From Patagioenas fasciata (lineage: Eukaryota; Chordata; Aves; Columbiformes; Columbidae): a stretch of DNA of 64,000 nucleotides. A program made the translations under genes and the position numbers. Below, piece by piece: positions 28,206 through 63,700 of this stretch; within the stretch, counting starts at the first letter, position 1, and each line of letters opens with the position of its first letter. The stretch lies in assembly GCF_037038585.1 (NCBI RefSeq), contig NC_092526.1, positions 40,745,501 to 40,809,500 of the forward strand. Reading direction: 5' to 3'. Below the pieces are notes generated by a model. The model was given only the letters and a program-made list of their open reading frames with translations. It made no database searches and had not been told where the DNA came from.

Positions 28206-28297
28206 CACAGCTGGAGCTGCTGCATAACGGACTGACTGTCCATGCAGCCACCAGCCAGCTGCGCACAACAGCTGGAGCTGCCACACAACAGAATCAC
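28206..28297. repeat. Tandem repeat copies flanking a CR1, near side
   Basis: The motif ACAGCTGGAGCTGC followed by a CAC/TAACGGACTGACTG block occurs at about 28206-28237 and again at about 28268-28297, a period of about 62 bp. The same unit reappears at 29152-29212 on the far side of the CR1. So the CR1 sits inside a short minisatellite just upstream of the AOX start. Confidence 0.6.
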
Positions 28298-33832: not shown

Positions 33833-36800
33833 CTGTGAATACAGGAATATACAGGTCTCCTTTTATATATTTTTCTGAATCATAAACTTTCAATTCCTCA
33901 TTATTTTCAATCAGTATTTCTTAATTTGGGTACTTTGGTTACCGCTTCTAGTCTAAAGATTCTCAACAAAAAAGCCTGGACACTTTCCCGTGTAACCTCA
34001 TCTGGGTGTTCCTGCTCCGGCGGGGGGATTGCACTGGGTGAGCTTTCCAGGTCCCTTCCAACCCCTGACATTCTGGGGTTCTGTGTGATAGATGATCAAA
34101 GCAGCGTTCAACACAGCCCTGGCTGTGCCCTGGCTCCCCGGCCATTTCCAGAAAGCCACTGTAATCTGCAGTGAGCGGCTCCAGACTCCCCAGTTACTGC
34201 ATTTCACAAAGTAAAACCGCACACAGCTCACGGCCTCGAGTGCAGGGGAAGGGACACGTGTATCATGAGAAGATCCAGCCTGGGCCAGATTTCTCCAGTC
34301 CTACTGGTTTCCAACTGGATGCCGGCTCTAAAACCAACGCACAATGCCAGACTACACAATCGACATTTAGTTTGGAGACAAATATTTCGATAACTTGGGA
34401 GAAATACTGAAATTACTACTTAGCTCACATTTCAAAAAAAATCTCAGCCCCTTGTAGATCATAGTCTCTCTGAAAAGCACCAAGAGTTAATGCAGACAGC
34501 AATCCAAGATGAAATAAAATACTCTGTGTTCCATAAAAGTTCTTCCAAGAGTGTACAGTCCTCACTGATACGAGTTTTAAATTGATTGTGTTCAGATGAG
34601 AACATTTGGGATACAGTTTTACAAAGGAACTGAATTTAAAACTCTCTTATCTTCACTTCTTGAGTTTGAACACGTCACCTTAAACCCTCTGAGGCAGCAA
34701 ATGGATGCTATTGATCTCACAGAGGAAATTCATACATATGGGATAAATGATGAATTTGTTGTTGTGCCTATCGTGAGATGAATAAATTATATCACTGTTT
34801 ATTTACAAAGCTGTTAAAGTGTTTTCTTTCTTTATCATAGCACCTGAATGCCTTGTACAGTCTAGCATACACACTCTTGATGGATGACCAAGCTGACAGT
34901 GATGAATTACTACAGTCCTGTAGAAGAATCCTGCTCTGAGATGAAGTGAAACATCTCAACAGGTAAGACCGATCATTTCATCAAGTATTCTGAAATACCT
35001 TAAACACAAACATGAAGTCAGAGGTTCTTCACTGGACTTCTGCTCACTTTTCAGACATATGAAGGTGACTTTGGGCTGCTTGCAGCAAACCCCTCCAGAT
35101 TTATGAAGGTAAAAGAAAAAGCATTGTCTTTTGACAGAGTTCATTAAGGGAAAGCAATGCGCATTTGGTTTACACAAGAGGGCTTTCTGAGCATGAGAAC
35201 CCTCCGAGTTTGGCGGCCTCACAAATCAGTCTTGATTTGTTCTCATTTTAAAGTGAAGGTAAACTCTTGTTTTGAGCTCCTCCTAAAGCTCAAGGTTGGA
35301 AATGAGCTGAGTTTCTCTTTCAGCAGTAAGAGTTTTGAGACTTCTATGAGTCTGCATTATTACAAAAGCTGGATGCCTCTGAGTGTGAATATTTACATTC
35401 ACATAGATTATACCATATAGAGACTTTCATTACAGGAGCCTTTCAAGGTATATTTCTAAGTAGAACTCAAGGTGGCGATCAGAAGAGCTGGCATCATCAG
35501 AAATCATGGCATTTCCTTGCTTTCTTTTAATTCAAGATATGGATTTAGATATAGGGTGAACAATGATCTGGCTTTTGAACTATGCTTAAACCGGCAAAGA
35601 TCAAATGATGAGCTTGCTTTTTATGCCAGTAGTCTTTGATACTGCTGATCACAAGGGTTTACTAATTTATCATTAAAGTTTCTAAAATTACGGGATCCTT
35701 TTCCTCCCCTCCAAAGAAGGAAATGAAGATGAGAAGATGCAACTGCAAATTACCAGGACTAGCACCTCACATGATGGTCTAATGCTGCCAGTATTTGTAT
35801 TAGATATGTTAGTCATCTATTCCTTAAACTCCTTTACAGTAATTTTGTTGTATGATAAAAGAATCTAAACCTATCTTCCAAACTACACTTTAATTTTTAA
35901 TTATTTTCTTAATTTAATGTATCTTACTGAAAGAAGTTGTCACATGAAAGTTTGCTCATGGGTAGATTCTAGAGAAAACCTGCTCAAAGTAGTTTTTCTA
36001 GATCTCACAATTCCTGTTGAATTGCAGTGGTCCTAAAGAAATAGAAAGGAAGTCTTTAAATCCAGTTGTGTTCTCCATTTATGAAGGGAACTGTGTTCAC
36101 TCTTATTTCCCTTGTATAAAAGCTCAAGTTATTGTAACCTTTCTGTCCCAAGCTTTCTGAATTCTGTCACAGTCTTTGAAAAATTAATACAAGCTCCAAC
36201 TATAATTGCTCCTCAATAATGTGGACTACTTACATCTGCCCAATCAAATATCATCTTGGAATATACTGAAAAATAACAAGGATATTAGTTACCACAATTA
36301 AAAAAAAAAAAGATGTTGTAACTGATATATGATATAGAATAATTTTAGTGATTTTCAGTCTTTTTGCATCCCTGTTTTATCCACTCGAAGCAATCAATAA
36401 GAGCAGGATAGCATTAAGATAACTTGCCACTATTTCAGGCACTATCTCATTCAAAATGCCATTTTTTCCTCACCATCCACTTACCATGACAAGGTGTCAG
36501 AGTCTTTTTGTCAGTCTCTTTAGAAACATGATCCAGTTTTTGTTCTGCCTTTGCAGTATCCAGTGCGTTAGTACGATCATTTTCCCCACAGATTTCAGAG
36601 TTTTTCGGTATAGAGAAATTCATAGAAGCATCATGGTTACCAAGAGCTGGGAGCTCCACACTGGAAAGAGCTTCCTGGAAAAAGCTCTCTGTGTTTAATG
36701 GCACATCCTTAGAACATTTCACAGGTAGGAATTTCAAAAATTCTGATTTTTGAGCTGTATGCTTTAACTTGCTCATCAAGGAATCTCTCTCCCAAGGGGC

Positions 36801-39800
36801 TCTCTGGTCATCCAAAATATTCTGCCTCCCCTGATCTATATGCTTGGAATAATTTTTGTCTGGTCTGGTCTCAGTAATACCAGCACTAAACCTGGGTTTG
36901 CACTTGATCTTATCATCAGGAGAATTACTAATGTGAGGGGTTTTATGTGCCACTGACGGGGAATCTACTTTCTTTAGCATATTAGCATCACCATCTACTT
37001 GTTCTTTAGCCTGTGGCGTATTCATAGATACACCATTCTGAGTAACTAAAGCTACTTGCATTTGCTGAGTTTCAGTTACTTTATTTCCAGGAACAGCCCC
37101 CACGTGCAATGCATCCTTAGATTTTAATTCTTCATTTTTACACCCTGAGAACTGTCTGAGATTTTCTTTTGGTATTATACATGCTTTCCTGCTGGCCTTT
37201 GCCAATGTATGTTTTAATCTCCTGGGCGAAAAATGGCTACTCTTTTGGTCTGCTTTCTGGGGAATTTTATGAATGCTGCCACTTCCAGTTTCTCCACTTT
37301 GTCTATAACTACTTTTATTGTTGTATTTTCTCTTTGTGATATTCTTCTGGTCTTGTTTCCTCTTGCTGCTATGCTGGTGTACCTCTGTTTGAGACTTTTT
37401 TGAAACAGATTCCTCATACTGCCCATTTTCCTCTCCATGGTACTCTGCATTGTCCATTTTAGAAGGGTTTTGAAAGGCTTTCCTGTTTCTTTTTGGTTTG
37501 CCACATTTCTCATCTGTATGCAGAAAGTCCTGCTGGGAAGGCAACACATTAGAAGTGTTATCTTGGAATGGTAGATTTGCAGCACAACAAACCTCTGGTG
37601 GGATCTTGTTACCAGAGGTGTTTGAGTCTGCTTTTTGTATTTTGCTTTCCACATCTTCAGACATTCCTGAGAAAGCTTCTTTATTTGTCTCCTGTTTTCC
37701 TGGACTCATTAAGATAACCTGGCATATCCCCCCAGCATCTCTAGCTTTACTTGGACAAAGTTGTTCTTGATAATATTTGCCAATATTTAGCAAACTCTGC
37801 TTCCCTACGGAATTGCCTGTGGGTAACTGTTGAGTTTGTGAGTCGGTAGTTCTTGACACTTCATTACTGTCAGCCCTAGTGGCCCTTTCTTCTACATAAA
37901 AATTTGAACTGACTTCAGTCTTGCTTTTAATTTTCTCTTTATCCTTCTTAGAATATTTTACTTTTCTGAAATTTGCTAACATTTGATCAGAATTGGCAGT
38001 ACTATTTTGATTTCGGTGTAATTTGTCTTTCGCTGTAACTGTGAGTAGTTCACCTGCATCACTGGCAGTCAACTCCATATCAGCATCATAAATGGTTTCT
38101 TCGGGCTTTGTCTTTTCAGTAAAAAGCAGCTTCTTAAAGTCTATCTTACTTTCATTGCTAAATTTAAGAGCTGAAGGGATAACGTGAGATGAGTCACTTG
38201 AACTTCCCTGAAGATTCACGTCATTGGTATTGCTGCTGCTGTCGATACCATGATGATGCAGATTATTTGAGCTACGTTTTTTATCAAAATCCTTTAGATT
38301 AGGTTGAGTTTCTGACTTAGGAATTACCGCATGTTTCTTTCTTTCAGTCAGCTTCCCACAGAATGGCACTGAACTATGATGATATTGTTTCACGAGCTCC
38401 TTGGACTGTCCTAAAGGTTGTGTATTTTCCACCTGAGTCAGGTAGGCACTGCTGCAAGTTAGTTCTGTGCATAATCGATTTTCTGCAAAGAGAAACATTT
38501 CAGTAGCTTGGGGAAAGAAAGAATATAGTTACCAGAATAAGACAGATTACTGAAGGTTGGACCAGAAGCATAGAAAACTACAAACTGTGTAAATCTCTTT
38601 TTTCTTTTTTTTTTTTTTTTTTTTCTGAATATACATATTCTGCGGTTGGTCCTTAAAAATTCACTTAACTAGTGCTGATTTAATATTTTACCGAAGTTGG
38701 GTATAAGTAAAAAGTGTGTTTTTCTACAACTGCTTTGGTTATCATTTGGTTAGCTTATCAAAGTTTTATTCTGCTCACATTAATTTTGTTACATTTCAGC
38801 TGTGTTACTTCAATGAACATTATTCTACAAGTGATTGTCAGAACACCCATACTTATGGGTGATCATTCTATTTTTTATTAGTTTATTACAGTTTAGGAAT
38901 CTGACTATACCTTCTGTAGTGCACATCAAATAATGAATCATTAAATGTTAATTCTCAGATCGCTCTGGAAAATAAATCAGCTGTACAGAAATACCTCCTA
39001 CCTTTTAAAGATATCTTTTTGTCAATGGTTGTTTCCACCGGGTCTATTTCAACGAACTTTTGATTATTTGTACCAGAAGGCACTGATAATACAAACTTGA
39101 CTTGATCTGAATGCATTTCTTTTGACAAAGTAGTGGTACACTTGGGAGGATTTGGTATTTCACACACCAAAGGGCTATCTTGCTGTTGTGCAGTAGCTGT
39201 TGCAATTAAAGGAAGATTCAATGGCAGTTCTACAGATCTGAAAAGAGGAAATGTTACTGTGAAGATCTGTAGTACATTTTATACCAAAACATCCAATTTT
39301 TTCCAACATTCCCTTAATAATGCTTAAAAGCAGAAAACAAGAACTCGAGTATGAAATCTGTTCTATCTTAGGGGCAAATGCATTTTTCAGTATAGAGAAT
39401 CCATCCTCATGCTGCTGAGATCCCATGAAGAAAGAAGCAAGCTGTTCAAACACAAATTTTGTCTACCAACCCACATACATTAACTCCAAGTTGCCAATGG
39501 GTAATTTCCGAATGAGACAGGAAATTGTTTCTTACTACCTCAAAAATACTGTCCTCTTTTTGTTAAAAAACAAGTTTCTCTTTTAGTGAATTTGCCTGTC
39601 AGCTAAAGCTTCATATCAGCTGCATTTTCCTGGAGAACCAGACACATGTTTTGGTAAACATAGCAATGGAATGTGAAGTTATTGATAAGCATGGCTGGAC
39701 ATCTCGTGAGAGGGGCAACAAGAAACAGGTGACCAAAAACTGACCAACGGAGTATAACATCCCATTCACGTGAATACTTCATGTAAAAGTGGGAGATCAT

Positions 39801-42800
39801 GAGGATCTCATTCCTTTCTCCCTTCCTTTTCCCTTTTGCTTATGGCCGACATTAGGAGAGGACCTTGCGAGTTGTCCCTGCAAACTGAGGCCTAGTGAGA
39901 GACTGAATCCAGCTCCAGTTGGCTGCAGAGTCCAGTCCAGGACTTCGGGTGCCGGCTCTGCAGTTCCTGGGACTTTTAAGACTGGTTTTGTATATTTTGT
40001 ATTATTTTCTCTATTCTTATTAGTAGCATTAGCAAAACATGTTTACTTTTTCCAACTCTCTTCTCTCTGTCCTTCTTTCCCTCCTGATCGCCTGTCCTGA
40101 GTGGGAAGTGGGGAGAGGGAGGGACTGAAGGGGGAAGGGAGGGGGAGTGGAGGTTAACAATACATCTGCCAGGGGTTTTATTGTCACCCCGCAATCAAAA
40201 CCCTCGACAAATACTTAGGACAATAGACAAAGATTAGTTGTAAAAAAAAATGAAAATCCAGAGACGCTTCTCAACTTGCACATTTAACAGAAGCACCTAC
40301 CCAGCTGACAGCTGTGTGCTCTTGAGCTGGTCATCAGTGGGGCTGCCGGGACCGGGCGACAGAGGAACACAGCTCTCAAGATTCTTTCAAAAGAACAACA
40401 GTGGGGAAGTAGAAACAGTTGAATATTCTCTTATAAGTATCAGAAATAGCCCAAAGCAATGTATAGACTTCTAAAATGTAGAAATAACTACTGTAAAGTG
40501 CATTATACATACAGAAGCACAGGGCAACACTAAGTAACTGTTTAGAACGGACAATAAAAAGTGGTGTGGGTTTTTTTTGAAATTAACAGTAATTTAGCCA
40601 TGACACAAGGATTACCATGTTTCCCAGTACAGGTTCCACATGCAAGATATTTCTTGCAGGACTAACCAGGGGAGGCACGTAGCTCACTCACTGGTGAAGA
40701 ACATCACATCCCCCAGTACTAATGCTATGTCTTTTTCTTTTAAACCACATGACTTCATGAGGACTAACTGGTATTTAACTTTTACATACTTTGTTAACAA
40801 GATTAAACCCTACATTTTTAGTGCAAGCAACAGCAAAATTTCATTTATTTCACTAGCCTAGGGCTTCATCCCAAGTCTGAAGGAAATGGGGTATATGTTT
40901 TGAAATGCACGTATATATGCAAACGCAATACATGATTTCAACATTGCACTCATTTAGATGCTTTGAAAATATTATCGTGCAAAACGAGTTCAATATGGTA
41001 ACAGTTAAAAAAAAGTCTCACCTCAGAAAGACTGCTTGTTTTTATTGCAGTTAAAAGATTAACATTCAAAAATGCTTCTATTTCTGTCAGAGTTTTATTC
41101 TGCGTGTAAAAGGAAAAGTAATTTAAAAAATATTTTAAATGGCTTCTGGCTTAAGAAAAGATATAAAGGTAAGTCTACGTTGTATTTTTTTTCATTCAGT
41201 TAAGCACAAACTGATTTCTTATATCATGTCAACACCTATAAACATAAAGGTGAAGCTGGCACTAAAGCAGCTGTGGATACACATATCCAGTGACGGACAA
41301 AATACCCAGTATACAAAAATCCTATGAAAGAAAACTCAAATGAAAATAATATGCTATCGCTTGATATAACCTCCCAAATCTGAGGTGTATATTATACATC
41401 ACGATTTTAAGAAGCAATATTGTTTGCAAAAAAGAGAAATGCTTGGTTTAGCTGATCTAAGTTGAAATGATATTACTTGCAGCATACCAAACTGGTTAGT
41501 TTTTGACGAAGCAAGATATTATGAAGCTGCAGCTTTTCTACTTCCTTCTGAAGAAAAATCTTCTCATTCTTTAGCTTCCGAGAATTTTCTTTCTCCACAC
41601 TCAAAGCCACAGCTAATGCTTTATTATTTTGTTTTAAAGATACTTTAAACATAGATGAGTTATCTAAAGGAGACAAAATCATATTATTTTCAAAAGCTTC
41701 ATTTCAAGGCCCTCTCTGCATAAACTATCACTACATAACAACGCTTTATCTGGGGGTTGTGGCGGAACAATAGCAGAGCCTGACGCTTTCTAATATGAAA
41801 CTGTTTCTGCTGGCTGCCATTCTGACCGCTATTCTGTCAGCTTCACGCTCAAGTTTATTTCATGCATAGATTCTGCTCTTGTTTGTGGGTTTTTTAATTT
41901 GTGTGTGTTTGTGGTTTTTCTTTTTAACAAGGTTATTGTAAGACGAAAGCATTTAGAGTTTCACAGGCATAAAAATATTTCTAAAAAAAAAAAAATCCCA
42001 AATATTTTACAAATCAAAGAGTTCAAACATTTTGAGCATAAGTGTGGGTTTTGACAACAGAAAGCAAAAAGCATGAAGCTAGAAATATAACTTCCACTGT
42101 CCTAACGACAACCTGCCCACTCACACCTGTTGCAGAATGTTTTAGGAACCTTTTTTTTCTGGTGAGCAACACTGCATATTATCAAGATGATTTTTTGCTT
42201 CATGTTCGTAGAACACACAGAGTTAACTTGAACTCAAGGTAGGGACCATGCTCTTTTATAGTACAAAAAGGAGCAAAATTAGCTTGAAATCTGCTCCAAC
42301 TATTAATACATCTCATCATCTCCTTATGTTATTCCTTCTAGAGCCTGTAATTCAAAATTTGCAATGCCATATTTCTTTGCTTTGGGAAACAGGCATAAGT
42401 CTGTGGAACCTTGTTAATCCAAACATTATGCTTTGCAATTGCTATTCAGATCAGTGAATTATTTGTTTTACTGCACTGTGGAGATTTCTAAAGGATATCA
42501 GTATTGTTCATCTACGTTGTTTAGTTTTCACTGAAAATTAGTATTTTTTACCCAACCATCTACCATGACAAACCCATGTTTTAATTTAAATCTGACTTAC
42601 TGGGAAAACAAAAGACCTTCTGGCAAGTGACTAAATCAGCAGATGAATATTTGTAGTTTTCCTTGATTCAGTAAATTCACTCAATGAAGAGTTTCCTGTC
42701 AACCCCATGGCAATACCAGGTATTTTACTATGGCAACAACACTTTGAAAGGTCATCAGTTTGACTCATTTTGGTACCTCATTTTTCAGATGGCCCAAATG

Positions 42801-43210
42801 GCCATGGACATGCACTTGAGTACAGTCTTTTACAAAATACTGGCATGCCAAAGAGCGTCCACTGAAAATACTCAGAGAATTAGATAAATAAACAACTTGC
42901 AATCACGTGTTTTAACTTTCAGACTCTCCTAAAATTCTCAACATACCACATTAATACTTTTAACAGGCAGCGATTCAGCAAGTCACATTAAATATAATTA
43001 CCATTCCTTTTTAAGTCATACATTCTAACTACAATAGACGGCTTAGGTTTTCTTTTACTTGTACTTACTCATTAATTTAGTTTTGATTTTGGATGCTAAA
43101 GAAGCATTCCATTTCGCAGCTTGCAATGTTCCATCTCTTTTCTGCATGTGTCCTCTAACAGCATCCGAGGTGACAATGGGGGATGATCGAGCGGTCGCCT
43201 GTTTCTCCAT
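32248..43210 (-). CDS. SGO2: Shugoshin 2, complete coding region
   Basis: Centromere protector: it recruits PP2A to keep cohesin from being removed in meiosis I and mitosis, and helps place MCAK and the chromosomal passenger complex. Coding exons on the minus strand: 43210-43069, 41663-41488, 41099-41022, 40383-40301, 39237-39002, 38482-36485, 33832-33685, 32353-32248. All phases agree and the product is 988 residues (human about 1265). The start is the ATG at 43210 ([10 protein letters not shown]); SLASKIKTK follows, as in human SGO2. The N-terminal coiled coil and the C-terminal shugoshin motif are both intact. The gene shares orientation with AOX and SPATS2L and points away from the KCTD18 remnant, as in mammals. 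A solo LTR lies in the intron between exons 4 and 5. Confidence 0.96.
33975..34098 (+). mobile_element. CR1 3' end fragment
   Basis: Short plus-strand CR1 tail in the SGO2 intron 6 (GAGCTTTCCAGGTCCCTTCC and on), the same subfamily type as the copy at 18182. Confidence 0.85.
34099..36484. other. SGO2 intron 6, no further feature seen
   Basis: AT-rich intron between the large exon and the C-terminal exons. I see no gene, known repeat or clear conserved block beyond the CR1 tail at its left end. Confidence 0.6.
36485..38482 (-). CDS. SGO2: SGO2 large central exon
   Basis: One 1998-bp exon encodes about two thirds of the protein. It is rich in Lys, Ser, Asn and Gln and looks disordered. [20 protein letters not shown] matches human TVYDADMDLTASEVSKIVTV, and [13 protein letters not shown] matches human FRKVKDSSSEKKR. 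Outside such islands similarity to human is low, as usual for shugoshins. The exon ends CATG at a GTAAGT donor; reading on without splicing would add only a short tail. Confidence 0.95.
38597..38634. repeat. Poly-T tract
   Basis: A nearly pure run of T with single C interruptions, just upstream of the SGO2 large exon acceptor at 38482 in the genomic sense. Confidence 0.8.
39550..40209 (+). mobile_element. Solo LTR (endogenous retrovirus fossil) in SGO2 intron
   Basis: A 660-bp element that begins TGTCC and ends CGACA, flanked on both sides by the 5-bp target duplication AATAC (39545-39549 and 40210-40214). There is no internal coding region, so it is a solo LTR, likely of an ERVL-like family given the 5-bp duplication. 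It lies antisense to SGO2, 91 bp from the exon at 40301. A second copy is at 54995. The clear match between copies suggests an age of tens of millions of years at most. Confidence 0.8.
41022..43210 (-). CDS. SGO2: SGO2 exons 1-3: N-terminal coiled coil / PP2A-binding region
   Basis: Exon 2 (41663-41488) encodes [20 protein letters not shown] followed by [20 protein letters not shown], the conserved shugoshin coiled coil with a clear heptad pattern, which forms the PP2A-B56 and dimer interface. Exon 3 ([20 protein letters not shown]) matches human NKKLIDIEALMNNNLITAIE. Exon 1 carries [11 protein letters not shown]. Confidence 0.95.
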
Positions 43211-44551: not shown

Positions 44552-44559
44552 ACAAGTAG

Positions 44560-47572: not shown

Positions 47573-49713
47573 GTTTGAATGGCTTGTGATGAACACCCTC
47601 ATCTGCAGACGCAATGGCAGAGATGCCCAGGGTGTCCATCCAGGCACGAGTCCTTGTGCCGCTTTAATGTCCAGTGCTGGCTTCTGTGTGCAGTGGGCGC
47701 TTTCCTCTCAAAGTGGCTGAATCAGGTGAGTATGTTCAAACTGTAAATATGACATTCTGATCAGGGAGCCCTGTGGCAAATGCACGCTTTTATACATATT
47801 TCTGCATTTTATAGTGTATATCTTTTCCCAATTTGCTGAGCATTGGTTGAGTTCTTCAGCTCCAGGACATAGAACAATTATGTGTGTGTGACTTTACACC
47901 TACAAGTAATTCACCTGAATTGCACAGACCACCCATGTTTGCAAACATCCGTGTTTGTACAGCGCTTGGCCCTGCCTCAGCTCAGGCCAAACCATGGCTT
48001 GGCAATCTACTTCTTCACTATCAATATCAAAATAGATAAAATTGAAGTTGGCAGAGTATTTGGCATTTAACTTGGATCCTTCTTATGAATCCCTGTATTC
48101 TCTGTCATTATATAAGATTTAGATCTCATCTTCGCTTCGGAATACTTCATTACTCAGGAAAGATTGCATTTTTCACCACCATGGCTTGATATGAAAGCTT
48201 GAATAAAACTACTCATGGCTCACATGTCACACTTGTGACTTGAAAATCCTGCCAAAGCATGTCCATTTTAAAGACCTGATGGATGGAGAATAGTAATGCT
48301 TCGTTGTACCCTTTTGACTGTTTAAAATATCTGAAACATTCAACATTTTTCTGGGCAGGACTTTGCTACCGTCTCCATGTTGCTGTGAACAGCCCGTTGT
48401 GTGCAGCTGTTTGGTCCAGTTCTGCAGTGGTCCCTGAGCCCAGCAGCCAAAGGACAGAAAAAGAAACAAAAAATCCCTGTAAAACCACAGCAATATTCTT
48501 TCTGTTTCCAGGAGCATGTCTAATTGGATCGAGATGGAGGTCTGTTTAAAGATCTTTTGGATTATCTGCATGGAGAAGCTTGGATTCCTGAAGATGAACA
48601 AATTCAAATTGCGTTGTAGGAGGAAGCAGATTATTTTGGCATCCCTTGTCCATACCTGACTGTTCGGCTATTCAAATGGAGACGTGTTCTTTAAGGTCAA
48701 ATAGAGAGCTTAAGAAGGTCTTGACATTTCTTCCATTTTAAAAGAAGTGCTCTCTAATCCGCATCATTCTTTAGCATCAGATACTAAAATTACAGTATAC
48801 GCAAGTTCGCACTTTTTAATCACCACGTTATATCAGCAGTAAATCCAGAGCTGATAACGCATAATAGAAGAATGAAAGATGAAAGCTTATTCAACTAAAA
48901 ATATTGCATTGTTATTCATGTTGTGTATGTTGTGGTTTCTATTTTTTTCAGGCTTTGTTAGATTTCTGCGACTCTCATGATTCAGTTTGTAGCAAGCCCA
49001 CAGTTTGGTTCCTGCGCTACCTCAACACGTCTGGAGCGAGCTATGGAAGTAAAATTATTGGGGTGTGTGCCACAAGAGCTGATGGGACTGGTGCAATTAG
49101 TAAAGAGCTAAGAACAAAAATTCACAGTAAAAGCATTTACAAAAGGTAAGATGACTGTCAAACACAGGAAAACATTATGAAGTGAGAATGAACACTCACA
49201 AATTATAATAATAGCTAAATATGTTTATTCCAAGAGTATCTGGACACTAGTGTCAGGTATCTGTCCTCCTACTGTGTTTTCCCTTTGAATAAATGATTGG
49301 GATTTACAAGTATCGGCTTTAGACCATCAGTTCTGTCATTATTCTCTTACTAACACCTGTTCTTTCCCAAATACCCATGTTTTAGCAGCAGGTGTTCCCG
49401 GGCACACTGATCATAGGAGGGTGGCTATTTAGGACCTCTTAGACAAATGAAAATGAAATTTAAGTAACATTTTCCTTTCCGTGTTACAAAAAATTTATTA
49501 TTAAGTCCTTCTACTTAGGATTTGGTTAAAAGAATGATCCATGTCACCAGCGTTACATTTTTAAGGACTTAGCTAGAGCTAGCACATAACTGTTACCTTT
49601 AAAACAACATTTCTAGAGAAGCTGGAAATAACGTCCAATACCTCTGGAGCTATTATTCAGTGGCTGAGTTGAAAAAGATGATGGATGCTTTCAAGGCCTG
49701 GGAAGGGAGAGGC
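47573..49713 (+). pseudogene. KCTD18: KCTD18 unitary pseudogene (BTB/KCTD family)
   Basis: KCTD18 encodes a BTB-domain protein. Four exon remnants lie in the ancestral place and order: 47573-47725 (start of the BTB domain), 48512-48717 (rest of BTB), 48952-49145 and 49617-49713. The first is badly decayed, though LASVCSGRFPL survives next to a good GTGAGT donor. The second keeps LFKDLLDYLHGE and EEADYFGIP but has an extra base near 48528, a TAG at 48617-48619 where family members have CAG (Gln), and a frame slip near 48655. The third is fully open (LRYLNTSGASYGSKIIGV) with both splice sites. The fourth keeps EAGNNVQYLWSYYSVAELKK but lacks a GT donor where the next exon should join. The C-terminal exon (WRVPHELIECW) was not found up to SPATS2L. 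Introns are retained, so it is not a retrocopy. Confidence 0.9.
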
Positions 49714-52700
49714 AGAGTATTAATTTTGTTCTTTTACTTCAGTATGACTATTTTACAGAAAAAACCACAGCCGGCTTAAAATAAAGCAGAAACCCTGCAC
49801 CATTTTTTCATATAAATATAATTTCAGGCCCTTTTCAAAGCTGCTGCTTTCCTATACATCTATATCTATATACCCACAGACTTTTCACTCACGCTGGTCT
49901 CTGGTTCAACACGCATGAATGTTTCAGCGCGGTTTGTTCCAGCAGTTTGCTGCACCAGCTGCACCATCTCGCATTTCTGTCCGTGTCTGTTGTCCCCTCC
50001 CGTGGTGACGGCCGCACTGAGCCAGGGCCCCTGTGTCCTGGGGAGCCCCTGCTGCAGTCACCAGGATACAAATGTGAGGATTTATACGATTTTGACACGG
50101 CCCAGTCACTATTTGGGGAAGAAGCCTCACAACATGAACTGCCATCCCTGAGCTCCCCTGGCACAACAGGCTCCAAGAAACTGCTACAAGCTCTAAGATC
50201 AATGTTTGCCTTCCAGAATTATTAGTTTCTCTTTCACGGTGATGTTTTCAAACATGTTAAGTGATGATTTTTTAACCCTTTTTTTCCAAACATACCTAAA
50301 TAATTTAAACTTTCCCAACAACTCATCTGTTACCTTCTCTTTTTACTTTTCCAACTGTGTATTTGGTCCTTTATTTTGCTGAGTTCTCCCCTTACTCTAA
50401 GTTTAATCTTACACAGAAGATAAACAGCTCCAACACACCTGGGTGTGTTTCCACTTCCAAAATACTCTATAAAGTGCAGTGGGAATTACGTGTGTGTGTG
50501 ATGCAAACAGCTGGACTTGCACTTCCAACCAGCCTTGCTGGCCCTAAAGTCCAGCCTTGTCCTGCCCGTAACTCCCGCGCTGAGCCCTGTACAAACCGCT
50601 GGCATTCAAGGGAGAATCACACATCACCAGCTCTGTAATTAGACAAATAGAATTTTGGGTTTGTTCTGCTGGAGACGGGCCCGAGAGCATCCACTTACTT
50701 ATGAGTGTTGTGAGCAGCAGCTGCTCGGCCACCACTCACCCAACACCTTTCAATGATCTGCAGAAGCCTGCTCAGGAGGAAGCTGACTTAGGGAGTGAAA
50801 GAACTTCCAATTATCCTCTCAAGGGGAGAAGCTATCAGGAAGGAATAAAAGTCAGCAAAAGGTTAGATTTTCTTTCTTTTTAGGAGGGGTTACAAAAAGA
50901 AAATGGAAGTAAGTTTCACAGCTTATGTAAGGACAATATAATAAGATTCCTGTGTAATATCTGCATGGAAATGATCTTACAGTGAGGGTACAGGCCACAC
51001 TGCATGGCAGGGGATGAATTCTGAAAAGCTGCCTATCTGGTGGGTGTGTACAACACAAATTCTGAAGTTTTGGTTCCATTTACTCAAGACATTCAGCTTA
51101 GGAGCATGATAGTTAATTACTCAGACAGCAGCAGTGCTTGCAATGGCAAGAAAGCCAGGGGTTACCTATTCATGTTTATTTTGCTTTCACCACTCCTCCA
51201 GATGAAGATGAGCTATTTGCCTTTTAGGCAAATTATTTGTTTTACTGATACTCACACATGGAAGACTATAGAGGTATCGAGAGAAATCAAAAGCACCCAT
51301 AAGAAACGCACCTGACTCTACACTTTGCAGTGGTTTTTCAAGGGCCACCAGAAGTCCAGCGGTCAGCACTAAGGGAGCGTGCCGCTGGCAACAGGAGCAA
51401 CGGCAAAAAACCCCAAAGAAGATGCTCAAGTGTCCTGCTCTGAGCGACCTCAGCAGAAAATAAACCCTTTGAATGCCCTCCTGATGCTGCCCCTTGGGCA
51501 GCTGTTCACCTGACGGCAGGTCTGATGCTTTCCTACGTGAAATAACTCCCATTAAAAGCCTGTTGAGCACGGAGGTGGCTCTCGCAGGAAGGTTCTGATC
51601 CGCGCACTCGTGGCATTACAGTCCAGCTCAACCCAAAAGCTCAGTCCAGTCCAGGCTCGGCTGAACGCTCCCCGCTGATACCAGCTGAATTAAGCAAATC
51701 CAATTTAATAAGATCACAAAGCTCAGGTACTGCAAAGCAGCAAACACCAGAATATTTTAGAAATAAGATTTTAATTTTTTGGGAGAAACAGGTTTTCTGA
51801 AATACAGAATCAGAACACTAAGACTAAATGAAATTTGAACTTTCATAGAAAACTTGGAAGGACGTAGTATCTGCTCAAATATGTACCTCCACATTCGGCT
51901 GCATGTTGCTGTGACAGATTTATTAGTCATAGCTCTTGCTATGGACAGATGGTTCCTACAGCAAAAATATAGAAAAATAATTTGGATTCAAGTCTCGAAC
52001 ACATGCAACTTCTCATATGCAAAAAAATAAATCCAGCTAGTGATAGAAAAGTGGCTGATCGGGATGGAGAAGAGGGCTGTGCATCTGAATAGCCATGACT
52101 ATGTACATTCCGAACTTAAGAAATGAGCATATCTCCTCAGTCTCATAAAAATAGTTTGTCAATGAAAAATACCAATATGTAATACATTTAATACAATTTA
52201 TACTTGGATTTAAAGATCTCAGATTATGGAATGATAAGCTAAAATCAAATGTACTGCTTTTTCAAATGTTCCTGTATATAACAATACTTTCTGTGTACAC
52301 AGTGTGCATGCATTTATGTGTATACACGCACAGAAAGAAAGAGGTGTATAGAGATTTGCAGGATTATCAGATTCCATTGCAGACCACAGCATGCAGGCTT
52401 CCTGCGGTCCTTCTACCACAGGCTGCTCTACAAACCAATAATGTTGGCGGTATAATCACATATCTACAGCAGGTCTTTTGCTATGATGATTTAATTATAT
52501 TTTTTTCTCAATCTAGATTTCATTTTTCTAAGAAGTAAACGCTGCTTTGGTGAGATTCTAGACTGCCATGACAAAATAGCTGTGAATGTATTGGGGAAGG
52601 CCTTCAAATTATGAATTTTGATACTTAGTAAGGAATAAAATCACCACGTTTTAAGCAGCAACAGATTTAAAACAACTATGTTCTGACTTATTTTCTTCGC

Positions 52701-52762
52701 CAGCAAGCACCCAGAGCAAGAAACTCAAACCGAAGAGGTCGGATTTCTCTGTGCGTGGTGTT
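49714..52762. other. KCTD18 remnant to SPATS2L stop: no gene recognised
   Basis: I searched for the missing KCTD18 C-terminal exon (WRVPHELIECW, LLGSLRHMAP) and did not find it. The right part should be SPATS2L 3' UTR. Short open frames at 49947-50225 and 51187-51570 match nothing I know. Confidence 0.55.
51919..51924 (-). terminator. Candidate SPATS2L polyadenylation signal
   Basis: AATAAA on the minus strand about 840 bases past the SPATS2L stop. Other weaker signals exist, so the choice is uncertain. Confidence 0.25.
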
Positions 52763-55700
52763 TCAAGCCACCAGAGTGAGGGCTGGCACAGCGAGGACGG
52801 TGGCGTCGGCCGGCACGTCCACGCCGGCGGGCCCCAGGTGGCAGGGCAGCACCCTGTCCACGCCACCCACAGGCCGCGGCTTGGCCCCCTCGCCCCCAGG
52901 CTGCTTGCGCCGTGGCTTCTCCCAATGCACCGGCTGCTCTGAGGTCCTTGCGGCTGTGGACTGCTCCTGGCTCTTCGCAGCTCCTTTGTTTTTAGATCGG
53001 AAGCTGTTGTGCTGCTGTCTTCTGTGCTCAGCCCTGGAGCCGCTCCTGGTGTGGTTTTGATCCGCCTCGTTGCTGGCACCTTGTGACTTCACAGATCCGT
53101 TTGGCCGGGTGGTTTGGTGCTGGGGGTTGAATCTTCGTCTCTGGTTAGAAGGCCCATTCTACCCAAAAAGAAATTAGGGAACTGTCAGGTCATCTGAATC
53201 CTTCCGACAGGACATGAAAGCCAGAAATCAGAATTAACAAGAATTACAGAATAAAATTTTCAGTGTAACTAGGAGAGGGAAAACACTACACAGTTTTGGT
53301 TGTTGCCAGAGTTCTCGATAACACTTAAAAACAAAACTGGGAGAACATGCTACATCTGAGAAGCCTGAACATATAGATGGCGAGTCACCACTGATGGCAG
53401 CTGGAAATCTGTTGTGATTTGAGAGAATACAGAAAGGGGATGAAAGAGCAGACATCTCAACAGCAGCAGTTAAGAAGCACTGATGAACCTGATACCGACC
53501 AATCGCTTCCAAAACACCTTTCCTAATAAAGTATTGTGTAAATACTACAGTAAGACTGCGGGGAAGAACAGAAATTCACATATAACTTGAAGAATCCCCA
53601 CAGTGGGAGAGATGCCCCTTGTGACACCTTTGACCCTCAGTGGGAAGTGGCTGAATTGCTTCATTTGCACGACTGCCGGGGCAGCTGATTCCATACGTGC
53701 ACTGACATCTCGTAATGCTCCTATATTTCCCTCCAGGCACCTACTTCCTACTTGAGCCCCAAATTCCTCCCGGGACAAAAGCCAGACTAACTTCAGCTGC
53801 AACTTTACCTCAGCACAACAGTACAAGGACATTCTAAGGTGCTCTTAGAAGGAAATATCTACCAGGAATACAGTACCCCACTGTAAGCTGCATTATACAG
53901 CTGCTGAAATAATATGCTGGCAGGATTCCACTTTCAAAGTCCATTTAAAAAAATCACACTTCCGCTGCACATCAACTGATCATTTGTCAGGATCAGGAAT
54001 AAATGTTTCTCCATCATAGCATGTAGGGCAATTAGCTCTTATGGGGGTTTTTCCTTTTCCAGCCTATTAACTGGCACTAGTCACTTCTGAACACCAGATA
54101 GTGGTCTTTGCTGGTACAGCATTTCTGGTACTTCCATCTTCTGTGTTCACACTGCCCTGAGAGTGTAGCTGGAAAATATATAGTTGCGTATTTTCAAAAA
54201 TCATTAAATATATAGACTGAAAACCACTATTTGATTTTGTATTAACAACTTGCAACGCTGCATGTTTTTCTGAAAAAATGCGGTGCAGTTCATCAGTGGT
54301 TTCTTACCTGCTTATTTGTCGGGATTCCTTGGGAAGAAGATTCTGTAGGACTGGAAGAAGGATGACTTTGTACTTTAGCGCTGGCTGGTTTATTATCAGA
54401 GTTCTTGGCGTTACTAGAGGACTTGCGGCTGTGTGTGTTTTGCTTGCCAGTCGTTGCACGCGAGGTCATTGAAGACAGCACCGAACTACATGGTGTTCTT
54501 GAGGAATAGTTGTTCTTTGGGTGAGAAACTATAAAGAAAGTATTCTGTGTTATCAGTTAAACGACCAATATCTAAACACAAGGCTGTGTTGTTACTCTGC
54601 TCACAGTTAGTTTTGGTAGCATGGTTCTGGATAATGAAGTAAGCTGGATAACTAGCGTCAGAAAAGGCAGAAGGATAGGGAGGAAGGAGCGATGTTTGCT
54701 GCCTGTATATGTACCAGCTACAACGCAGGTAAGAGTCACGAAAGCTTCCTTAGTATGTCTAAATATTTTTTTTAAGAAGAATTAAGAAGGAGTCTAACAC
54801 CTCTTGCTCATAGTTCTCTAATGAGACGATTAACAAAGGTTCTTCTGTACCGTGGACATCCAGAAACATCAAAACTGAATGCACAGCGCTAATCCACCTC
54901 ACGGAGGTCATGGCAGCCCACACCACGAGGAACCAGCGCTGCTCATCTCAGTACAGTCCTGCTCCCTGTTTCTCAGTGTTCTGTGACTGCATGGTGTCCT
55001 GGTTTTGTTAAAAACAAGTTTCTCTTTTAGTGAATTTGCCTGTCAGCTAAAGCTTCATATCAGCTGCATTTTCCTGGAGAACCAGATCCATGTTTTGGTA
55101 AACACAGCAATGGAACGTGAAGTTATTGATAAGGACAGATTCACATCTCGCAAGAGGTGCAACAAGAAACAGGTGATCAAGGAACTGACCAACTGAGTAT
55201 AACATCCCATTCACGTGATACTTCATGTAAAAGTGGGAGATCACGAGGATCTCGTCCCTTTTTCCTTATGGCCGACATTAGGAGAGGACCTTGCAAGTCG
55301 TCCCTGTGAACTGAGGCCAGTGACAGACTGAATCCAGCTCTGGTTGGCTGCAGAGTCCAGTCCAGGACTTCAGGTGCCAGCTCTGCAGTTGCTGGGACTT
55401 TCAAGATTGGTTTTGTATATTTTGTATTATTTTCTCTATTCTTATCAGTAGCATTAGCAAAACATTTTTTTCCAACTCTCTTCTCTCTGTCCTTCTGTCC
55501 CTCCCGATCGCCTGTCCTGAGTGGGAAGCGGGGAGAGGGAGGGACTGAAGGGGGAAGAGGGTGTTAACAATACATCTGCCACGGTTTTATTGTCAGCCCG
55601 CAGTCAAACCCCTCGACACCGAGTTTCTTAACCACTTCCACATCTGGATGCCAAGTGCACCAAGCAAATCCTTGATTCCTCGCTCTCTCCGTTTCCGCAA

Positions 55701-58700
55701 ACTCTCCCAGCTGCCTGCGTCTGCGCGATGGCCCCCGCGCAGTCTCCAAGAGGACTCTCAGCCTACTGAACTCAAGTTCTTGATCTAAATTTGCTGTTCT
55801 GACTTTTCCAGTTACGGAGTTTTCCTGTTTCCCTCTGATACAGATGACAAAGAGGCTCACTTCAGTGAGACACATGCTGTTTTATCTAAGAGGTACTTCT
55901 CTTTCTCCACTTTCAGTACAAAGAAAGATGTGGAATAATTTTAGCAACTAAACATCATCTGTTAGGTTTTTTGAGGCTCTTATTCACCTACACCCTCATC
56001 AACTACTTCTCTCACTAGGTGTCCTCTTCAGAAAAAACAACGCTATGATCTGCACAACGAACGGAATTTTCTGTCCAAAGCAGAGGGAGGCCAGTTGTTC
56101 TACCACTCCCTCATCTAAAACAGACTGCTGCACATGGAAGCCCATATAAAAATGCAGGGACTTGTCATAAAAATGTATTTTTAACAAAAAAGATATACAA
56201 GGAAGGGGTACAACCCACCATCAGGCATTCTGGATATATGTCACTCCAATTTTTTTGCTTCTCCCTGTTGTTCCTTATGTCTCCTGTCCTCTCATGCCAC
56301 AACTCCTTTGCAGGAGCTCTGTGGGTTCGGTTATTGCTTTTGCTAAAGCCCTCAACAGAGGCTGCTCTTAGCCAGAGGCCTGGCCTAACCTCTGCTGGAG
56401 GCACGTTTGCAGCTCCTAGCAGGACACGGGCCTCACGCGAGATGCTCCAGACAGACACATCTTTTGCGCTGAAGAGCTCTTAGCAAAGACATCCCAACAG
56501 CATGAGGTGCTCATCTGCGGTCGCTGTGGGGACGGCAGCGCTCTTCAGGCAGTCCCTGTAAGGTGCTTCCCTGCCTTCTGACTTCGGCGACCTCATTTCA
56601 ACAGCTCTGCGGCAACTGCGCCCAAGGAATGCTTTACTGAAATGAGGTGTAAATAATTAACTTGAAGAATTAACTGCAGCTGGAAGTTATTTAGGAAAGT
56701 AGTTTTATGAGTTTATAAAAAACCCCAGCCTACAGTTGTATCAATAGCAGCTGTGGTTGTGCCAGCTGGGGTAATCTTTACAGAGTTTTCAGTCTGTTAA
56801 GCTCAGGGCAGGAGGGAGGGTCTGTGAGGGGACTCTGAACAACCAGGTGTGTTACTGGGAAGCTTGTGCTTTGCTTTGAAACATCCTGGGTTGGCTTCAA
56901 TGAGAGACAGGACGAGGGGTCAGATGGATCTCCAAGGTGTTCTGCAAAAGCAATTCTTACGGTCTAATGAATTAAAGCGGTTGCTCCTCAAAGGAGTCAG
57001 TTCTGTAGCTGTGCAGTCAAAGATCACTATGGCACACTCTGTGATTTTTTTCTTTTTCTATTTCCAGTAACTCCTTGAAAACATTAATTTTCTTCCTGAA
57101 ACTGTTTTCCTTCCACCAAGTTCAGTATTGTGTTAACAGTTTTTCTCCTGAGTGATGGTACTGACAGGGTATCATGGGACAGGGTAACATGTGGGGCAAA
57201 GCATTACAGCGTTTACCTTTTAGGGTGAGGGGAAAAAGCACAATAGATGAGAAATAGGCTATCTCGTATTTTTCAACAGGGACATGATGCTTGGAGCAGA
57301 AAATGAACCCGATTTTCCAAGCAGAAGGGCAGATGGTTTGAAAACAGAAACATTTGGGACTACCTTTAGCTCCTGATAAAGGCAGCGAATCCTGCTCTAA
57401 AGTGGGGAGTTACCTCCTAGCATGAGAGATCTGGTGTCAGAACATCACACTCACACAGAGAAGCTTCTCTACAGGACCCTGCGTTAGCAGGGGTGTTGGA
57501 CCAGGTGATCTCCAGAGGTCCCTTCAACCCCGACCAGTCTGTGATTCACTAGTTACACATAAATCACTGAATGTGAGTGTTCCCCCGAGCTGACTTTCAA
57601 TTCCACTTGGAAACCCCATCTAGATGGAAAACTCCAATGGATCTGAGTAATCCCCAGAAGTCTCTGACAACGAGGGCCCTGTGCACGTGCAGCCGCACCG
57701 TGTAGCACACGTACACCGAGCTGAGCGTGCCGTGTACTGTAAAGCTGACTTGTGTGTGTCCAGCAAGCCCACCGCATCCAGGCCCCACATTCACGTCACA
57801 CACACGCTGGCAGCACGCATGCTGTCACTTCTGCCGGCGTTTCCCAAACAGGTGCGTGGAGCGCTGTGTTCTGAGAACCGCGGTGTGAGGAATCACCAGC
57901 ACTTACTTTCTCCACAGAGCTGGATTTGGGTTTTCAGCTGTTCTGTGTCACAGGAAAATCGGGCAGACCTGCCCAGCTCTTCGTCGTATTTCCGTTCACT
58001 CACAAAGTGCTGCAAAAACACAGACAAGTTAACGGTAATTTACATTCAGAGAAAAAGGCTATATGGGTGGTACAGAAACCAAGCAATACTTCAGCTCGCT
58101 TTCAGTCTCAGCAAACTCTTGACCCTGCCCTGTACACAGTGTCTCTCTGCAGAACCAAGTGTTTTCCCACCCTTACCAAATCAACACCTCACCGCCCAGT
58201 GACAGGTGGATGACTCCCACGCTTGGGAAGCAGGTCATTTCCTCGGAATATATGTGTTTGATGGCTGAACCTGAAGCTATCAGGTTTACTTGTTAATTTG
58301 GTCTGATTAATTATAGACAAGCAGCAAAACACTGTGCAAAAACTATGAGGAGATATCCTGCATGTCTCTGATAGCGCCTGTCCATGCTGTAACGGTTTGA
58401 GAGGGCACACGTTCCCTGCGACAGCTCTTCCTTGGCATTTACACAGAGCTAAAATACCCAGGCAGAAGCGATCGCCTGACCTTGATTTCAGCCCTGAGCT
58501 CCGAGAGCTGCGCCTCAGCCATCTGACTGGCCAGGTCCGTCAGCCTCTTCAGCTCCTCTGCTTTCTTCTGCCGAGCCGTCAGGATCTCCACTGCCAAATA
58601 CCGACAAGCAATCGTTAGCACTAGGAAGGGAAAGTGCTCTGCAGTTTGTTACTCTTTGGGCATTAACAACTGCGCATCGCATGTGAGACAAACACATATC

Positions 58701-60792
58701 TCAGACCCCCAACTCCAACTCGACATCCAATACGCTGCTTGCACACGTTAGGTCAATCAGCATATTTCACTGGACTGCTCGATGTCGGAGCGGTCTGGAA
58801 ATGGGACAGCTGTCGGAAAATGAAAGTTAAACCAATCCTTCCACATTTACACAAATAGGGGCAAAGAGACATTGCTTTGAGTTTTCCAGTGCCTCAGTTT
58901 TAAACACAACACCAGGGAGCCTTCCATGGAGACATGGAAAGAAGCATTACATTGAGTCAACAACCTGTTTCTGAAGACAAGCTGTATTTTATTTGCACAG
59001 GGACAATTAAGTTCCCTGAAAAAAAATCTGTTCATTTACGTTAAAATTACCAGCACTGCGATTTTGCTTTCAAGTTCAGCATATCCATAGTTGCCATTTC
59101 TACAGCAAAGCAGCATTACAATGGTCAACAATCTCTATGAGAAAATATTAAATACTCACTACTGCCCATCTTGTGTGTTTTATGTAACAGAGGGGTGAAT
59201 AGTTATGTTCTTACAGGAAAAGCTTAACCACGAACCACAAAGCAACAGTCCACTTACATGCAGGATAGTCTGACATTACAATTTGGGTAGAAAATTATGT
59301 CTATGCAAACTCTATTACCTACATGGTGACTCAACGTGAAAGCAATAACTCATTAATTGGCTGGTAGTATCAGCAGTTATGGCAGAGAGGAAAGACAGTA
59401 TCTAAATGTAAAATAAGAACAAAGGGTTGGGGTGGGAAGGGCCAGCTCCTTCAGCCCCACTCGTAGACCTGCGCCTGCATCATCACTTATGCTAAGAACT
59501 ATCGCTCTAGCTCAGCTTTAACTTCATTTTTGTGGAACACTGTCTACAAGTCTGAGAGATTTCTATTGGATTAAATGAGCAGTTTACTAGCTGTTTTTCT
59601 TTGTCCAATAGTTCTGATTTATTGCTTATTCTAGGTAATGCTAATGCTGTTTCCCTCCGAGGTCAGCACCCCTTTGTTGAAGTGACTGCCCGAACCATAC
59701 GATCTCATCACAGACTGGCATTTATCTCTGCATGAGATGCCCGCCAAATACTCATTTAAAAAAACCCCTGAAATGATCATATTTGGAAATGTTCCCAGTA
59801 TTGACAGTAAGAGTAAGATTACCCACTGTAAACCAGTCCTCCAGTGCAGCAAAGAGATGTAAAAATAAATAATAACATGAATCTTGGTTAGCACGTCACA
59901 GTCCTATCACAACTTTCTGCCTCAAGTCCTGAGGGCACTTCCCAAGCCCACAGCGGCCCGAGAGCCTTCAGAAGCCACGGGTACAGACACACACACAGAG
60001 AACTGAGAATTTCTTTAACAAAAACTTTCGTGATTCTGCCATTTCGTGCTTATTCCTCTCTATTGAAACACACCCCCTTGGTTACTGGGCCATGAATACC
60101 GTATCTCAGTTGGGGTATAAGACAGATACGGTGGTTGCCTAATAAATGGCTCACTGTTCCTCCCTCCTCCAAACCACAATATATATACACCTTACATATG
60201 TGAAAACCAGAGAGGACATGAATGCCTGGAATCAGACCAACTCCCACAGATTATTAAAAGAACAGATTCCAGTAAACGTCTGTTTTTTTATTTTTTCATT
60301 GTTCTAATTCATAAGCTTGATCACTATCCCTTAAAGGTATGCAAGGCCACACAACAGCCTATTCCGCTAGTAATTTCCACTGTTCTAATTCATATATGTA
60401 ATATAAGCAACCAAACAGCGATTAAGGAACGGAAAAGAGTGGTCAGAAAGCTCTGATAAGTAAGCAGAAGGAACAGATAATTTAAATTTAACTTCATAGG
60501 AACTTTTGGTTTACCTTAACTTGATAAAATCGAAATTTTGATGCACAATCCTTATAGATAGAAACCATACAGAAACTACCCTAGAACATCAAAGACTTAT
60601 TTGATCACATACGTATACAATGACAGATGTTGGAATGCTGCTAACCAAATTTATCTACTGTGTAATTTGCTGCCAAACAAAACAAATGTTTCCAAGACTA
60701 TTCCAAAAGTTCCCTGTGTATTCTTTTACTTACTGGCTTCTTCTTTAACTTTATCGATTTCTGCCATTAATGACACTTCTTTGTCTACGATG
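52763..60792 (-). CDS. SPATS2L: SPATS2-like protein, five 3'-terminal coding exons (5' end outside window)
   Basis: SPATS2L (SGNP) is a nucleolar and stress-granule protein of the SPATS2 family. Coding exons on the minus strand: 60792-60734 (IVDKEVSLMAEIDKVKEEA), 58590-58481 (EILTARQKKAEELKRLTDLA and on), 58009-57907 (HFVSERKYDEELGRSARFSC), 54528-54308 (SHPKNNYSSRTPCSS), 53158-52763 (NGPSNQRRRFNPQ to VPALTLVA, then stop). Phases agree at every junction. The first three form the conserved family coiled coil; the last two are the low-complexity basic tail. It matches human SPATS2L to the final residues (VPAVTLVA in human). The N-terminal exons lie beyond base 64000. It is tail to tail with the KCTD18 remnant, as in human. 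Confidence 0.96.
54995..55618 (+). mobile_element. Solo LTR, second copy, in SPATS2L intron
   Basis: A 624-bp element with the same ends (TGTCCTGG...CTCGACA) and body as 39550-40209, antisense to SPATS2L. Its two flanks do not form a matching short duplication, unlike the other copy. No internal region is present. Confidence 0.78.
55619..57906. other. SPATS2L intron, no gene seen
   Basis: Apart from the CR1 tail at 57474-57548 I see no recognisable feature. Confidence 0.55.
57474..57548 (+). mobile_element. CR1 3' end fragment
   Basis: Short plus-strand CR1 tail (GGACCAGGTGATCTCCAGAG) about 360 bp from SPATS2L exon 57907-58009. Confidence 0.8.
58591..60733. other. SPATS2L intron, no gene seen
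   Basis: No recognisable exon, RNA gene or intact repeat. A weak GGTTGGGGTGGGAAGGGCCA stretch near 59425 may be a very short CR1 scrap. Confidence 0.5.
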
Positions 60793-63700
60793 CTAAAAAA
60801 GGAAAAAAAAAGAAAGAAGAAAACCACAGTTTAGTCCATGCTAGAACTCCATTCAAAAGCAATAACTACACAAAGACTTCAGACCTTAGTTCCTTAGTTA
60901 TGGGTAGTTTTGAAATGAATAAGACTTAAAAAATCAAAGCTGAAGAGACAGCTATGCAAACTGACTGTAAAAAATGAGTGATAATGAGTGAATGCTGCTT
61001 TACACAAACACCTCAGTGCTGGCCTGGCCGTGTGTCCACACAGGTGTGGAAGAGACCCTGTCTGACCTCCTCAGCACCGCAACCCTCACATCAATCAAGT
61101 GTCTCTTTCCTAATGATGCCAGATACACCACTGCTGCTGCCCAGGCTACAACAGCTTTGCTCTCCGTGCAACATTCAGAATAAAACAGAATTAAAGTCCA
61201 CATTGGAAGAGCTCCTCCTCTTCCTTAAATAGAGATCTTCTCACAAAATACGTCAGGGTAATCAGGGCAATGGTTTGTGGTGTAAGGAAGCATATGCACA
61301 AACGAGACTGAAGAGATTGTTGTGGCCTGCCTGATCAATTGATCCTGCCTTCCGCAGCAGGGGAAATAGAACAGCGGGATTTTATGGTCGAGCATACTCC
61401 CATGATGGAATGACACTTGTTCCAGTTGGGCCTCATCATTCTCCACACATACGCATTACACTTGGACTCGAAACAGGCAGGTGACAACTCCAGCTTGCTC
61501 ATCTAAGCAGCGATCATCTATTTTCAATCAGCTTTTGTAACTATAGGCTATCATACACTTCCTTGGCTTTCACAGCAGGTGGCTGAAATGAGTCTTGCCA
61601 GCTCTCACCTGTTTCTACCCTTCAGAGAAAAAGAGATTTTAATGTCCTTTAGCCTTTTCCCCTAAATGTAAAGAGTCTGCATGTGTTCGCTTTTGCTGTT
61701 TCTGTTACTAAAGTGCTGCCCTAGTGTCTTACACAAACTTCTGGCTGCTCCCAAGAGCAGAGCTCACCAGCACCGTGTATTGGCCCAGTCCACTCTGCCA
61801 CTGTTTCCTCCCTGCTCTCACAACAGATCCTTGCTGAACCCCTTGGGCCCTAACATTTTATTTTGATGCCAAATATAAACACTTTTAATACCAGAATGAG
61901 AACAAGGCCATAATAGTCCTACATTTATCATATTTCCCACTCCTAATGTGTTAGTGTGTCTCTGATGAACATTTCAGCAAAGTTGGATGTTGTAGTGGTA
62001 GAGACCAGGACAGATGAATTTGACAGAGAGCAACCACCTGAGTACTTCCCTTGTAGCTACAAACTAACATCAGGAAAACCAAAGAACAAAAGTGTTTGGT
62101 GCCTCTGTCAATCTGAGAGCAGTTAAAGTGCTGTAGAAAGATGAGGTGAGAAGTAAATTATGCTGACAGCTGCCCCTTTTACAGCTTCACACTCAGAACA
62201 AATTCTGAATTTGTTCTGATGCTAGTGGAAACAAATTAATCTTCTAGTTTAATGCATGAAATTTAGTGCTTGCACAGTGAAAGTATCTTTTCGTCAACTG
62301 CAATAACTCAAAATCCCACTAAAATGATTAAAGTTATTAGTGCCTCTTCAGAAAAGCTGCCTTGGATTGCCAGGCTGGCTGGTGTACAGTGTAGAGCTTT
62401 ACTGCTGAGAATCACAAAGGGTCCAGATGACCAGAAATTTCTCTTCCTTTCACCTCTTCCAGGCGTTATGATAAACCTGTTGTGCTGGAGAGATGGGGAA
62501 ATGAAAAGCCCGAGCTGACAGGGGTGCAAACACGCTGCCCCAGCTGCCGAAGGCAAACCACAGGGGTCACCGCTCGGAACGGAATTCAAACGAGTCCTTT
62601 CAAAACTCTGTTAAACGCCCATGGAAATGTTTCACATACACACTTCCTTTCTAGTGTGAACATATTTGACCCACAGGTGGGGTGAAAAGGCAACAGAAGA
62701 ACCTCTAAGCCAAGTGTGTATTCCACACCTCAGCCCAAAACGCAGAACTTGTCCCTGTCGAGCTTTCAGCACAAGGAACTAGAACGATGTTATGACAATG
62801 TCAATAGAAAGCCCAATCACCTATAATGGGCGGTTACAAGCTTTATATTATTACTGAACAGCCATGCTATGTTGTAATCTGAGAAATGATACTTCAAGTT
62901 TTCTTTATAGTAATAAACCTGTCAGAAAAAGCTGTTGTTGCATCATGTATTTTGCAATGACTCAGTAAATGATATTCTTCCAGGATTAGCTCAGGAGTAT
63001 TTAGATGCTGATGGCAGTCGATGGCTGCTATTTGATCCCTGCATTAGCATATGCACGGTGTTTACACAGCAAGCCAGATTACCTGAATTTTCATTCTGAC
63101 TGTAAGCAGACAAACAAATGACAGAATAAATCCATCTCGCTGAAATCCTTCCCTCTGCAGCATCCCAGCTGGTAAAAGTAAAACTGCCCAAAAGCTTTTA
63201 TTCAAGTTTACTTTGTGTTATTCTTTATTTACCTTCATGGTTTAGTGGTGCACTTGGCAGTCTTGAGTTAACGACCGGGCTCAATGATTTTAAGGGTCTT
63301 TTCCAGCCAAAATGATTCTATGAAAATGCAGCTGGGCCAGAGCAGAGGAGGCTCGTCTTGCTTTGGGCCAGTTCTGCACGCAGTTAATTACATCTGGCCC
63401 CTGCTATTTTCCATTTGTGGTTGGAAGCAGTGTTCGGGCAAGCAGCAGATGTTTCCTTTCAGTTCTCCACATGACTGTGTGGGTGCCCAATATGTGAAAA
63501 TGATTTTCTGGCAAGAGGCGTTATGTGGAACTGTGGCTCCTTTTGTGCTCTATGCATTTCACTCAGTCTTCCCGGGGCGCTCTTTTTATCCCCAAGATCG
63601 CTATTCAGTCTCTTGGTGGCAAAGCGAGAACACGATCAGAGGGCACAGGTTCTAACCTTGGCAACAAGCGTCTTGAGCGCGCTCTGGGGAGAGGGACTGT

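Follow-up and report, generated by a model that had tools for sequence, protein, structure and literature searches.

The sequence studied here is a 64-kb window, that is, the whole stretch of DNA that was analysed, taken from a pigeon assembly of 1.45 Gb in 359 contigs; it contains no runs of N. Residues 1–220 of KCTD18 are left in the window as remnants at positions 47573–49713 of the plus strand, flanked by SGO2 and SPATS2L, both of which lie on the minus strand. The features of the locus are:

32251..43210, minus strand: SGO2, the neighbour on the 5' side of KCTD18 (tblastn, eight blocks; its exons contain no stop)
47573..47725, plus strand: remnant of KCTD18 exon 2, residues about 1–53 (tblastn, frame-aware alignment, splice signals)
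48512..48717, plus strand: remnant of KCTD18 exon 3, residues 53–123, most of the BTB domain (tblastn, frame-aware alignment)
48952..49145, plus strand: remnant of KCTD18 exon 4, residues 124–188, open frame (tblastn, PF19321 at 2e-31)
49617..49713, plus strand: remnant of KCTD18 exon 5, residues 188–220, open frame (tblastn, PF19321 at 5e-19)
49714..57907, plus strand: interval where the exons for KCTD18 residues 221–431 were expected and not found (tblastn)
57908..58015, minus strand: SPATS2L exon piece on the 3' side of KCTD18, PF07139 positions 259–294 (profile match)
60732..60794, minus strand: SPATS2L exon piece, PF07139 positions 204–224 (17.6 bits)

Using tblastn with six bird KCTD18 proteins, we obtained blocks for residues 24–33, 36–53, 56–100, 98–125, 123–188, and 188–220, all in this order and on the plus strand. 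A sequence-only reading of the same DNA had placed four KCTD18 exons between SGO2 and SPATS2L in this direction, and the tblastn blocks bear it out. Over the six proteins, E values ranged from 9e-17 to 1e-20 for exon 3, from 7e-27 to 3e-28 for exon 4, and from 6e-15 to 1e-16 for exon 5. The matches of the exon 2 pieces (0.03 to 3e-4) are weak by themselves; their order and strand agree with those of the other exons. In exon 2, the stretch RHESLCRF (47642–47665) is followed by a frame slip near 47669 and then by FPLKVAESG, which runs up to a GTGAGT donor, while the start of the exon was placed by inference from an acceptor-like AG. The KCTD18_C profile (PF19321) covers exons 4 and 5 at positions 12–108 of 309 only (2e-31 and 5e-19), exon 5 being the last recognisable piece of the gene. 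Sequence identity to the first 50 KCTD18 proteins among the matches listed was 74–79%.

Splice signals were good at six of the eight exon borders. The acceptor AG is kept at exons 2, 3, 4, and 5, and donors are kept at exon 2 (GTGAGT) and exon 4 (GTAAGA); the donor of exon 3 (AAG/GTCTTG) is poor. The donor after 49713 had been described as missing. The site is indeed unclear, yet a GT lies 3 bases past 49713 (AGA/GTATTA). A retrocopy was ruled out by the kept introns (four exon pieces set apart, with AG/GT signals); the earlier claim that the introns are kept and that this is the original locus therefore stands.

On the 5' side, the SGO2 blocks cover residues 1–904 and 906–988, that is, 987 of the 988 residues of the Columba livia protein, and the two stops within blocks are intron run-on at exon ends. 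An SGO2 open frame at 36450–38528 (minus strand) is 92% identical to the protein of Columba livia and 86% to that of Caloenas nicobarica; one further row reached 84%, followed by a shearwater at 73%, and 98 rows had an E value of 1e-50 or better. These values place the window in a pigeon or dove that is probably not C. livia itself. SPATS2L was seen through three PF07139 stretches, with 57908–58015 as the best of two in the first search. The piece at 60732–60794 scored below the Pfam cut-off (17.6 bits against 25), its order and strand agreeing with those of the piece at 57908–58015. Both neighbours had been called intact; this holds for SGO2, while SPATS2L was followed through the three Pfam stretches only. 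For chicken, one study groups KCTD18 (ENSGALG00000008155) together with AOX1, SGO2, and SPATS2L in a single region (PMC12993601). With the chicken gene set for comparison, the pigeon remnant lies at the ancestral place, with SGO2 and SPATS2L as its ancestral neighbours.

An open frame at 23438–23833 (minus strand) was also observed inside the window; it seems to resemble the iron-sulphur portion of aldehyde oxidases, which would fit the chicken SGO2–AOX1 neighbourhood. Dispersed repeats at 18185–19043, 28295–29155, and 44015–44552 have a mutual identity of 95–96%, and a shorter inverted copy at 33974–34089 is 88–89% identical to them. These are presumably CR1 LINE 3' ends and, if so, would mean that CR1 elements have been active in this pigeon fairly recently. 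Another repeat pair, of about 620–660 bases in the same orientation and 87.6% identical, has one copy among the SGO2 exons (39550–40209) and the other where the 3' half of KCTD18 was expected (54995–55618).

For the reading frame, the window was aligned in a frame-aware manner with a consensus of 40 bird KCTD18 proteins chosen from the 120 listed. Together with tblastn, this alignment revealed a start that could not be recognised, a frame that slips three times, and a premature TAG. Residues 1–23 gave no tblastn match in any frame and fitted poorly in the frame-aware alignment. Besides the slip near 47669 in exon 2, exon 3 carries a slip near 48523–48526, with an extra base near 48526, a premature TAG at 48617–48619 made by substitution, and, near 48656–48675, a net loss of bases which shifts the frame. 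The frame slips that the sequence-only reading had put near 47670 and 48655, its inserted base near 48528, and its Gln-to-stop change at 48617–48619 were all recovered by the alignment. The BTB_2 profile gave 44 matches, none of them at the KCTD18 locus, where the BTB domain is broken in frame and stopped.

The loss goes deeper than had been described, as residues 221–431, half of the protein, were not found. Using eight bird proteins, tblastn gave no match to this half below E 0.5 in the 64-kb window, and in the whole 1.45-Gb assembly a full-length condor query gave a single chance-level match to it (E 6.6). The interval 49714–57907 ends at the nearest SPATS2L exon found and may hold further SPATS2L exons. 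The search was controlled with C-terminal halves of KCTD18 from gull and chicken, which were randomly back-translated, decayed by 8, 12, 20, or 30% base change plus an indel every 60 bases or so, and placed at 50000–57000. At a threshold of E 0.01 they were recovered in all 240 trials at 8–20% base change and in 78 of 80 trials at 30%; the planted halves were each in one piece, whereas introns may divide the real one, which makes the control somewhat favourable. As far as these searches see, the 3' half appears to be gone from the assembly, most simply by deletion. Several independent disabling lesions are present: three slips, the TAG, the unrecognisable start, and the missing 3' half.

Exons 4 and 5 are counted against a complete loss, as both are still open and have good acceptors and one good donor, which is what a truncated product would need. 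The gene might then live on in shortened form, with these exons coding part of a KCTD18_C-like protein by means of a new start or flanking exons. However, the genome-wide search did not find the remainder of the C-terminal domain, and two exons of 194 and 97 bases could plausibly have stayed open by chance at such divergence. Compared with the bird consensus, 13 of the 97 residues of exons 4–5 differ (11 in exon 4 and 2 in exon 5); the 40 birds average 3.7 such differences and reach 9 at most. Seven of the 97 are unique replacements at residues otherwise invariant in the 40 birds, which themselves average 0.3 unique replacements and never have more than 2. The open exons also changed as often as the broken ones. 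Changes affected 15 of 87 readable codons in exons 2–3 and 13 of 96 in exons 4–5 (p = 0.54; 28 of 183 in total), and constrained first and second codon positions were changed at 12 of 141 sites in the broken exons and 13 of 167 in the open exons (p = 0.84); as these counts are small, a weak difference in constraint between broken and open exons would escape. Broken and open exons have changed alike, which indicates a loss of selective constraint. We therefore consider a surviving truncated gene very unlikely, nothing suggests such a protein, and the loss looks complete.

Slightly less likely still is that a duplicate of KCTD18 elsewhere took over from the copy at this locus. Searching the assembly with full-length condor KCTD18 gave 18 matches, three of them at the locus (residues 56–101, 123–189, and 183–220). 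Elsewhere the query met 14 BTB-region matches at 32–46% identity, four of the 14 above E 0.2. The KCTD18 remnant as query gave 11 matches, five at the locus and six elsewhere at 29–40% identity. Away from the locus, both searches thus yielded BTB matches at 29–46% identity and the one match at E 6.6, which argues against a duplicate, although the assembly may be incomplete. No second KCTD18 was found in the 1.45-Gb assembly, where the other pieces were of BTB domains at no more than 46% identity, beside that one match; only the best candidates were scored, and the result holds as far as the assembly is complete. This outcome is consistent with a unitary pseudogene.

Least credible of all is an assembly or sequencing error in an intact KCTD18. 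Sequencing errors can give single-base slips such as those near 47669 and 48526, but the kind of lesion makes an error unlikely: 28 of the 183 readable codons are altered, exon 3 has losses of several bases and a stop that arose by substitution, and the 3' half was not found genome-wide, in a window that has no N runs and SGO2 exons free of frame errors.

KCTD18 of other animals was investigated in a protein collection whose rows are one representative per 90%-identity cluster, so that an intact pigeon KCTD18 could be hidden. At lengths of about 195–620 aa, 297 of 680 candidates matched and 120 were listed. Birds were named in 82 of these 120 rows, at 380–461 aa, i.e., with full-length or nearly full-length KCTD18; the flamingo record (P0001) is named as a low-quality protein, which may reflect either a damaged gene in that lineage or just an assembly error. 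Of the 120 rows listed (297 matched), 114 are named and none of these is a columbid, nor, at 66–210 aa, is any of the 3 host-named rows of 13. A hidden pigeon fragment was not detected either, as none of 133 rows had more than 2 of 13 window-specific states of exons 4–5 (best P0228, with 2). A pigeon protein would be expected as the nearest relative of the remnant, and its absence from these rows was therefore counted for the loss. Two named columbids do turn up for SGO2 in the same collection; other bird orders, ducks and hawks for example, likewise lack a named entry in the 120 KCTD18 rows listed. The missing columbid KCTD18 thus points weakly towards loss in pigeons.

The remnant resembles KCTD18 of birds, crocodiles, lizards, and mammals in that residues 24–220 align and PF19321 matches it. 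It differs from KCTD18 of other animals in having no open frame through the BTB domain and no C-terminal half that could be found. In one study, zebra finch KCTD18 is reported as present, though truncated by genome gaps; its dN/dS against chicken of 0.41 was flagged as high, alone among 20 KCTD members, and the faster change was put on the chicken side of this finch–chicken comparison (PMC3711925). The orthologue reported as present in the zebra finch is a broken remnant in this pigeon.

Taken together, the kept introns, the synteny, the several lesions, the lack of another copy in the searches, and the orthologues of other birds bear out the earlier proposal of a unitary pseudogene. We are highly confident that KCTD18 of this columbid lineage has lost its function and is decaying in place. 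The frame of this single KCTD18 gene is destroyed through the BTB domain, a predicted cullin-3 adaptor; the gene probably became dispensable in the columbid lineage, its 3' half may have been lost by deletion, and the loss, seen here in one assembly, is presumably fixed in the species. Among the unitary pseudogenes of vertebrates, COA1/MITRAC15 offers a parallel: it is a different gene, reportedly subject to recurrent erosion, that some lineages retain while in others it has decayed.

The sequence-only reading had considered the loss worth dating across birds. This narrows to the pigeon lineage. Over all remnants, 25 of 308 constrained first and second codon positions were changed (d = 0.08). 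The avian neutral rate is about 1.9–2.5 per site per billion years. This suggests that the loss is some 30–45 million years old (32–43 by that rate), a rough estimate with a wide error, as the changes number only 25 and the rate is uncertain. The ages of the pigeon family would put such a loss near the base of the family; our prediction is therefore that it is common to most pigeons, if not to all. We lean somewhat towards a single loss of KCTD18 in the common ancestor of today's pigeons and doves, which would make them a natural knock-out some 30–45 million years old.

Little work has been done on KCTD18. One study predicts that its BTB domain binds cullin 3 in a 1:1 complex (PMC10856315), and another names KCTD18 as a strong G-beta-gamma binder in pull-downs (PMC9976452). 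A report of KCTD18 loss in pigeons, Columbidae, or Columbiformes was not found among the open-licence papers listed. Annotators would learn that the absence of KCTD18 from this pigeon is genuine, more than a gap in the assembly. Birds, reptiles, and mammals otherwise keep the gene; a lineage that has long lived without it would mean that at least one bird can dispense with KCTD18, and would offer a natural contrast for its role. If the loss is common to all pigeons, a whole bird family would do without this predicted cullin-3 adaptor and G-beta-gamma binder.
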